From: Gammaproteobacteria bacterium
GTDB lineage: Bacteria; Pseudomonadota; Gammaproteobacteria; Pseudomonadales; Azotimanducaceae
Assembly: GCA_004357385.1 (NCBI GenBank)
Contig: SMWF01000026.1
Span: 1-64,000 of the forward strand
Length of the DNA: 64,000 bases
Direction: 5' to 3'
Shown in pieces: positions 20,301 to 22,004 of the stretch (its first letter is position 1; each line of letters opens with the position of its first letter). The notes under the pieces are model-generated. The model saw nothing but the letters and a program-made list of their open reading frames with translations. It had not been told where the DNA came from and made no database searches. A program made the translations under genes and the position numbers.

Positions 20301-20326
20301 CCATGACGGTGAGATTGGGGGATACC

Positions 20327-21475
20327 ATGAAGCGACTTTTCGGACGACTCGTTGGAGCAACGCTGATGTTGGCCGCGCCTGGCCTGGCCATCGGCAGCGC
20401 TACCGTGCTGTACCAGGACCACACCATCAACGTTGCCGACACCCTGGCAGACCCTAACGACCTGTGGATTCAGCCGAGCGAACTGACCCGCGTGAACGGT
20501 TTCGAACTGAAGCCAGAAGGGGCCTGCATCGACGATATCTGCGTGCCGGTGAAACAGAACGAAGACAGCGAAATCTTCATCACCCGGGGCGACACCCGGT
20601 GGTTCAACGTGACCGAACTGGCCCGCCGCCTGCAGCAACCCTTCGTCGCCGACTACGATGCGGCGATCTGGAGCTTCGGGGCGGTCCCCGCAACGCGTGC
20701 CAGCTTCCTGCAGAAAGGCGTCGCCCCGGACTTCGCGCTGCAAGACCGGCGTGGTCGCGAGGTCACCCTGGCGGATTACGACGGCATGAAGGTCTTGTTG
20801 CTGACCTGGGCCTCGTGGTGAGGCTGCCGTTTTGACCTGTCAGGTTGGCAGGCTGTTTACGAAGATCTGGAAGACGAGAATTTCATCATCATCGCCGCCG
20901 CCCAGGACACGGGCGGAGAAGCCGTTGCCGGGACCTGGTACGACCAGGCCAAGGCCACCTATGTAACGCTGGTGGACACCAATCACACGATCAGCTCGTT
21001 GTACGATCTGGTCAATGTGCCGTCCGCCGTGTGGATTGACGAGCAGGGCCAGGTGCTGCGCATCGACGAAGGGGCCTACGCCACGGTTCACAAAATGGGA
21101 GAGTTCGAGTTCGGCCGCGACGACTACGCGCCCATGGTGGTCGATTGGGTACGCAACGGGCCGGACAGTCGCTATGTTGCCGACGCGAAGGCGGCGACGA
21201 GCCGGCTGACGCCAAAGACAGCCGAGGCGGCACGCGCCGAACCCGCCTTCAAACTCGGCGTTTACTTCCATTCCCGAGGCGATGGGGCGAAGGCAGATCA
21301 ATACTGGGAGCAGGCTCAGGCGTTGAACCCGGATAGCTGGAACTACGCGCGCCAGGACTGGTCGTTTACACCCGAGCAAGCCAATGCCAACTGGGCCGAA
21401 AAATTCGAAAGTCTCGAGGGTAAACCCTACTACAAGCCTATAGCGGGGCTGGACAGCCCGGGCGGCGAAGGCTGA
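20327..21475 (+). CDS. exported thioredoxin-like selenoprotein, Sec encoded by in-frame TGA at 20819-20821
   Basis: 382 residues if the TGA at 20819-20821 is read as selenocysteine (residue 165). The frame upstream and downstream of this TGA is the same and reads W-A-S-W-U-G-C-R-F-D-L-S-G-W, the active site of a TlpA/ResA-like thioredoxin fold. Strands before it (VTLADYDGMKVLLLTWAS) and after it (NFIIIAAAQDTGG, VPSAVWIDEQGQVLRIDEG) complete that fold. The redox motif is U-G-C (Sec165, Cys167), one residue shorter than CxxC. A signal peptide (residues 1-21) predicts a periplasmic location. Residues 22-140 form an extra N-terminal domain, and the tail has a TPR-like segment (AYFHSRGDGAKADQYWEQA style). 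GGGGGA before ATG 20327 sets the start. Convergent with a second Sec gene. Confidence 0.85.
20822..20854 (+). promoter_or_regulatory. SECIS-like hairpin for the thioredoxin-like selenoprotein
   Basis: Just after the TGA, CTGCC (20824-20828) pairs with GGCAG (20847-20851), and GACC (20834-20837) pairs with GGTT (20843-20846, one G-T pair). A GTTTT bulge lies on the 5' side and the apical loop is TGTCA (20838-20842). The loop begins 17 bases after the TGA and has a G at its second position. Both agree with known bacterial SECIS rules (loop about 16-37 bases downstream, early G). Confidence 0.7.
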
Positions 21476-21524: not shown

Positions 21525-22004
21525 CTACAGGTGCTCAGGAAGCGCCTCCGCGATCGCCTCGGGAGTGGTCGTGGGACCGTACCGAGCGACGACTGACCCG
21601 TCCCGACCGACCAGGAACTTGGTGAAGTTCCAGGGGATGTCGGTTTTGCCTTCGTCATCGGCCTGTTCGGCCTTGAGATACTTGTACAGATCGCAAGCGC
21701 CGTCGCCATTGACCTCGATCTTGGCGAACATCGGGAACCCCACGCCGTATTTAGACGTCGCGAACTCCAGGATCTGTTCGTTGCTGCCCGGCTCCTGAGC
21801 ACCGAACTGGTTACAGGGAAAGCCGAGCACCGTAAAACCCTTGGCTTCGTTGTCTTCGTGTAGTGTCCGCAGACCTGCGTACTGGGGCGTCATCCCTCAT
21901 TTACTGGCGACGTTGACGATGAGGCAGACCTTGTCCTCGTAATCAGACAGGCGGACCGTGTCACCGGTGATGCTCTGCATTTCGAAATCGTGAATTCCCG
22001 CCAT
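21525..22004 (-). CDS. glutathione peroxidase, selenoprotein (Sec encoded by in-frame TGA at 21899-21897)
   Basis: 159 residues including selenocysteine at residue 36, the usual length of bacterial glutathione peroxidases. From ATG 22004 (aggag seven bases upstream) the frame reads GIHDFEMQSITGDTVRLSDY, then the strand CLIVNVASK, TGA, G-M-T-P-Q-Y-A-G-L. TGA is at the peroxidatic position. The rest of the catalytic tetrad is present: Gln in FPCNQFGAQEPG, and Trp and Asn in DIPWNFTKFLVG. The enzyme should reduce hydrogen peroxide or lipid hydroperoxides with thiols. Without Sec decoding only the last 122 residues from an internal ATG would be called. It lies 29 bases after the serine hydrolase gene on the same strand and may share its transcript. 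Confidence 0.9.
21865..21882 (-). promoter_or_regulatory. SECIS-like hairpin for the glutathione peroxidase
   Basis: On the minus strand CGCA and TGCG pair around loop GGTC, extended by GT/AC beyond an A-G mismatch. The loop begins 22 bases after the TGA. The apical sequence GCAGGTCTGC equals the apex of the E. coli fdhF SECIS as I recall it, including the loop G recognised by SelB. Confidence 0.75.

Follow-up and report, generated by a model that had tools for sequence, protein, structure and literature searches.

Organization of the locus

The window, that is, the whole stretch of 64,000 nucleotides analysed here, carries a putative selenoprotein gene on the forward strand at 20327–21475, which was delimited with the help of homologues and encodes 382 residues followed by a stop. 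Re-reading of the 382-residue frame (20327–21472) revealed a single internal TGA at 20819–20821, corresponding to residue 165 in the translated context LLLTWASW-U-GCRFDL, and both the coordinates of this sole interruption and the motif W-A-S-W-U-G-C-R at the redox position agree with those given in an earlier, sequence-only reading of this DNA. The terminal stop of the gene is also TGA. The likely start is the ATG at 20327, which has GGGGGA upstream, and another in-frame ATG is present at 20303. Gene calling with table 11 cuts the gene into 20303–20821 and 20972–21475, a split that the same reading had anticipated. In many genomes a single continuous protein is homologous to the sequence on either side of the TGA, and on this basis 20327–21475 is identified as a real gene, far beyond a chance open frame.

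A glutathione peroxidase gene is positioned on the reverse strand at 22004–21525, with a TGA at 21899–21897 in the context NVASK-U-GMTPQY, and is likely a second selenoprotein gene, convergent with the first. Since its selenocysteine codon is TGA, gene callers start it after its active site. The best hairpin for this gene under the rules for bacterial selenocysteine insertion sequences (bSECIS) is weak (-6.1 kcal/mol).

Genomic context analyses revealed that the flanking genes differ among relatives, and no conserved neighbourhood that would name a partner was found. When the neighbours of the window gene were sought beside its relatives, hits were confined to two of them: L006, which has a distant amidase, and L002, which has a serine hydrolase. 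Searches for relatives in viral contigs and in plasmids returned none.

Conservation and decoding of the internal TGA

Homologues were collected from genome contigs (L002–L008) and from genome searches, and each was read through the codon in question; only full-length homologues were counted, as the whole-genome search also listed many unrelated thioredoxin-domain proteins. The codon of residue 165 is TGA in 25 distinct full-length sequences from 20 genomes, the window's own included, and encodes cysteine (TGC) in five sequences (L080, L082, L083, L084 and L088) from four genomes. The sequence-only reading had proposed a search for Cys or Sec at this position, and had named homologues ending there as evidence against a selenoprotein; the homologues run through the codon. 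Identity to the window protein is 51–67% for the nearest group of TGA homologues and 28–38% for the distant ones, and the homologue tree places the Cys forms on two separate branches. The wider family is not confined to one phylum, as an Acidimicrobiia metagenome-assembled genome carries a TGA-containing member (L008; JAJEDQ010000241.1, 4929–5948). In addition, a member with 51% identity (L004; DUDC01000106.1, 995–2131) lies on a contig binned as Planctomycetaceae in an otherwise proteobacterial clade, which may reflect either horizontal transfer or mis-binning.

The genome of the window contains selA (548 bits), selB (406 bits), a tRNA-Sec gene (selC, 71 bits) and selD, all above their curated cut-offs, and thus the full gene set whose presence the sequence-only reading had suggested checking; selA, selB and selC are located together on contig C91. 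Two selD homologues above the cut-off were observed in this genome, at G000:C114:3862-4764 (L056) and G000:C22:4450-5187 (L055). The former sits within a frame of 745 amino acids that may be a fusion such as Ndh-SelD, and fusions of this kind are on record (PMC2398784). Across the family, selA was found in all 20 genomes with the TGA form (13 + 7 examined) and was missing from each of the four Cys-form genomes searched for it (G769, G771, G825 and G849). The exact p value for this sorting is about 9e-5 if the genomes are independent, and serves only as a guide since they are partly related. Completeness is 90% or more for three of the Cys-form genomes and 83% for G825, so the missing selA in G825 is weak evidence if taken alone. 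Because selA separates the Sec from the Cys forms exactly, they offer a clean comparison for learning what advantage selenium confers on a redox site of the CXC type.

A bSECIS-type hairpin, CCUGUC-AGGUU-GGCAGG, is predicted on the forward strand at 20836–20852, inside the coding sequence and conserved in the family. The published bSECIS model (PMC13188914) includes a loop of 3–9 nt with a G in one of its first two places, a stem of 4–16 bp, a spacing of 16–37 nt and a minimum free energy (MFE) of -7.5 kcal/mol or lower. With 6 bp, the loop AGGUU and a spacing of 20 nt from the UGA, the conserved hairpin agrees with the loop, stem and spacing rules, and its energy in the window, -7.3 kcal/mol when folded alone, is just short of the limit. 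At least four inner pairs together with an NG[GU] loop were observed in all 25 Sec sequences vs one of the five Cys sequences, and RNAalifold, run on 12 and on 25 sequences, chose the 20-nt hairpin unprompted. In five Sec sequences a paired silent change, CUG/CAG to UUG/CAA, replaces a C-G pair with a U-A pair formed by the silent sites of one Leu and one Gln codon. Part of the clade keeps only 4 bp of this hairpin. Most of its pairs are invariant, one slid control has a higher covariation score, and for the small Cys set, too, the pairs outscore shuffles; the conservation of the stem could derive largely from the conserved protein around W174-Q175, which includes an invariant Trp codon. An Rfam search at the site gave no match. 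The comparisons thus provide good support for the 20-nt hairpin on loop and position, and modest support on covariation.

Taken together, the homologues and the genome content make it very probable that TGA 165 is read as selenocysteine and that the gene encodes a selenoprotein. Standard gene calling does stop the frame at this TGA, as it would at a real stop in a decayed pseudogene or at a sequencing error, but this explanation is refuted by the conserved TGA/Cys pairing at one codon over 25 and five sequences; both halves are conserved and the Sec machinery co-occurs, so that its probability is close to nil. Reassignment of TGA, or its readthrough as Trp or another residue, fits a frame that is open provided that TGA is sense, and yet the homologues that lack the TGA carry Cys there and never Trp, the gene itself terminates with TGA, and the genome holds a full Sec apparatus; we regard this reading as very improbable, if slightly less so than a pseudogene. 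A further question concerns which structure directs insertion. The hairpin named in the sequence-only reading, with its loop 17 bases downstream of the TGA, does exist (probably GACCU-GUC-AGGUU; spacing 17, GUC loop, -12.9), and in the window the MFE belongs to a longer competing structure (-16.3); both are more stable there than the short hairpin, and one of them might be the true, window-specific SECIS. However, the 17-nt hairpin is not the one conserved in the family, and the long fold was rejected as a conserved SECIS, as, across 12 homologues, only 73% of its cells are paired and compensatory pairs are lacking. Given also the unprompted choice of RNAalifold, a window-specific element appears rather unlikely, and the short conserved hairpin is the preferred candidate.

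Domain architecture and predicted export

The N-terminus of the predicted protein (residues about 1–25; 20327–20401, forward strand) resembles a signal peptide, as had been proposed, in terms of both hydropathy and comparison with homologues: it is basic, then hydrophobic and Ala-rich, with a peak hydropathy of 2.18. Similar N-termini were observed in seven of the 13 members of the window's clade (the window, L002–L005, L072 and L073), and are absent from L074–L079 of the same clade. The window protein is therefore probably exported, as judged from its N-terminus. The predicted exported branch formed by these seven members is likely mis-annotated, because gene calling splits the gene and its score against NCBI's model for this group stays under the threshold.

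Three further regions follow in the forward-strand frame: a beta-rich N-terminal domain (residues 22–126; 20390–20704), recognized in the alignment and the structural model, an AhpC-TSA/ResA-like thioredoxin-fold domain (about residues 132–249; 20720–21073) and a C-terminal helical, TPR-like tail (residues 264–382; 21116–21472). The thioredoxin fold with a U-x-C motif described in the sequence-only reading is borne out by a match of AhpC-TSA (PF00578) to residues 133–243 (52.6 bits vs a cut-off of 26) and by the structure comparisons, and the extra domains on both sides of it are likewise supported. The model built from 12 homologues (mean pLDDT 82.6) matched 1st9 and 4nmu with a Z score of 17.9 and an rmsd of 1.9–2.0 over 136–139 residues. 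In all 30 homologous sequences the active site is UGC or CGC, one residue shorter than CXXC, and C67, C72, C167 and P232 (in an N-V-P loop) are invariant.

The N-terminal domain, which holds the invariant C67-x4-C72, was modelled alone with a pLDDT of 93.5, and its two cysteines are predicted to lie on successive strands. No Pfam family matched this domain, and Foldseek gave no match under E 0.001; its best VIA-align Z score, 6.3 to 5h3k, may reflect only a common arrangement. A copper-amine-oxidase-N1-like fold had been suspected from the sequence pattern, and support for it was not found. As for the proposed TPR-like tail, the TPR_2 match is sub-threshold in the window itself (15.2 bits vs a cut-off of 27), whereas 24 of the 30 homologues match at E <= 0.1 and the model is helical in this region.

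Proposed mechanism

We propose that SelB, with Sec-tRNA(Sec), would read TGA 20819 as selenocysteine, directed by the short hairpin 20 nt downstream within the coding sequence, a decoding route that is strongly supported by the sequence data. The exported chain would then consist of the beta-rich CX4C N-terminal domain, a ResA/TlpA-like U-G-C thioredoxin domain and the helical TPR-like tail. The selenolate of Sec165, at the start of helix 1, may attack a periplasmic substrate at a disulfide or at an oxidised thiol, and Cys167 would resolve the mixed selenenylsulfide to form a U165-C167 bond, which a donor would re-reduce, possibly through the invariant C67/C72. The latter pair may serve either as a structural disulfide or as a relay. 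From fold and motif, an exported thiol/selenol-disulfide oxidoreductase with disulfide-exchange chemistry is a reasonably likely assignment. A more specific proposal, put forward tentatively and with more doubt than confidence, is that the window gene represents an exported, so far all-Sec WAxxUGC subfamily in which a periplasmic U-G-C site and a CX4C dithiol cooperate, making it a two-centre extracytoplasmic selenoenzyme that gene callers cut in half.

The main alternative for the chemistry is a Sec-dependent peroxidase, like a peroxiredoxin or a glutathione peroxidase, in which Sec165 would reduce peroxides and Cys167 would resolve the selenenic acid; the protein would be a selenoprotein in this case too. 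The domain family bears the names AhpC/TSA and Redoxin, peroxiredoxin structures match the model with Z scores of about 15–16, a gene for a probable Sec-containing glutathione peroxidase adjoins the window gene, and the group was named 'Prx-like (UGC-containing)' in earlier papers (PMC2398784). Against this, the peroxiredoxin motif PxxxTxxC is missing, with L158 and A162 at the places of P and T, and the Pfam glutathione peroxidase family (GSHPx) reaches only 18.7 vs a cut-off of 27. In addition, the highest structure scores belong to ResA/TlpA-type proteins, and P232 of the N-V-P loop, at the place of the cis-proline of thiol-disulfide oxidoreductases, is invariant. A peroxidase is accordingly a minority reading, unlikely but worth keeping in view, and disulfide exchange is favoured over peroxide reduction because PxxxTxxC is absent and GSHPx falls below its cut-off. 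Publications on redox motifs of the CXC type and on selenoproteins of the periplasm offered nothing decisive.

Relationship to known selenoproteins and thioredoxin-fold families

The sequence-only reading knew of no described protein with this full architecture, and that statement does not hold. NCBIfam NF041054 (WAxxUGC_long, 'ResA-like WAxxUGC motif-containing protein') aligns with residues 47–361 of 382 (E 1.2e-76; model positions 7–333 of 354), almost the whole chain, and 'Prx-like (UGC-containing)' selenoproteins were reported in 2008 in the Global Ocean Sampling study (PMC2398784), with UGC-containing Prx/TlpA-like selenoproteins also appearing in reviews of 2022 and 2026 (PMC9312934, PMC13188914). 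By motif and domain, the window gene belongs to this described group and is no novel type of system. Its own genome also holds a paralogue (G000:C129:13508-14593; L059/L066) that scores 507 bits against NF041054, well above the cut-off of that model, has the motif WAPY-U-GC, also encoded with TGA, and apparently lacks a signal peptide.

Comparison with NF041054 revealed the same WAxxUGC motif and the same domain order as in the window protein. The two differ in that the window scores 258.4 bits, below the curated cut-off of 300 (clade members tested gave 232–258), and belongs to a separate clade of 13 sequences with 100/100 support, all 13 of them Sec forms, outside which the over-cutoff members are placed; moreover, the signal-like N-terminus is absent from those over-cutoff members. 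We therefore describe the window gene as a probably exported relative of NF041054, outside that equivalog by its own cut-off. With the UGC-containing Prx/TlpA-like selenoproteins (PMC2398784, PMC9312934, PMC13188914) it has in common, as far as these are described, PF00578 and a Sec in UGC; the passages on this group name the motif and the domain, to which the window protein would add export, the CX4C N-terminal domain and the tail. Finally, its predicted model has the fold of ResA, TlpA and CcmG-DsbE (Z 17–18 over about 138 residues), and both have the active site on helix 1 and the invariant proline of the N-V-P loop, whereas the window protein carries U-G-C in place of CXXC, one residue shorter, and has additional N- and C-terminal domains.
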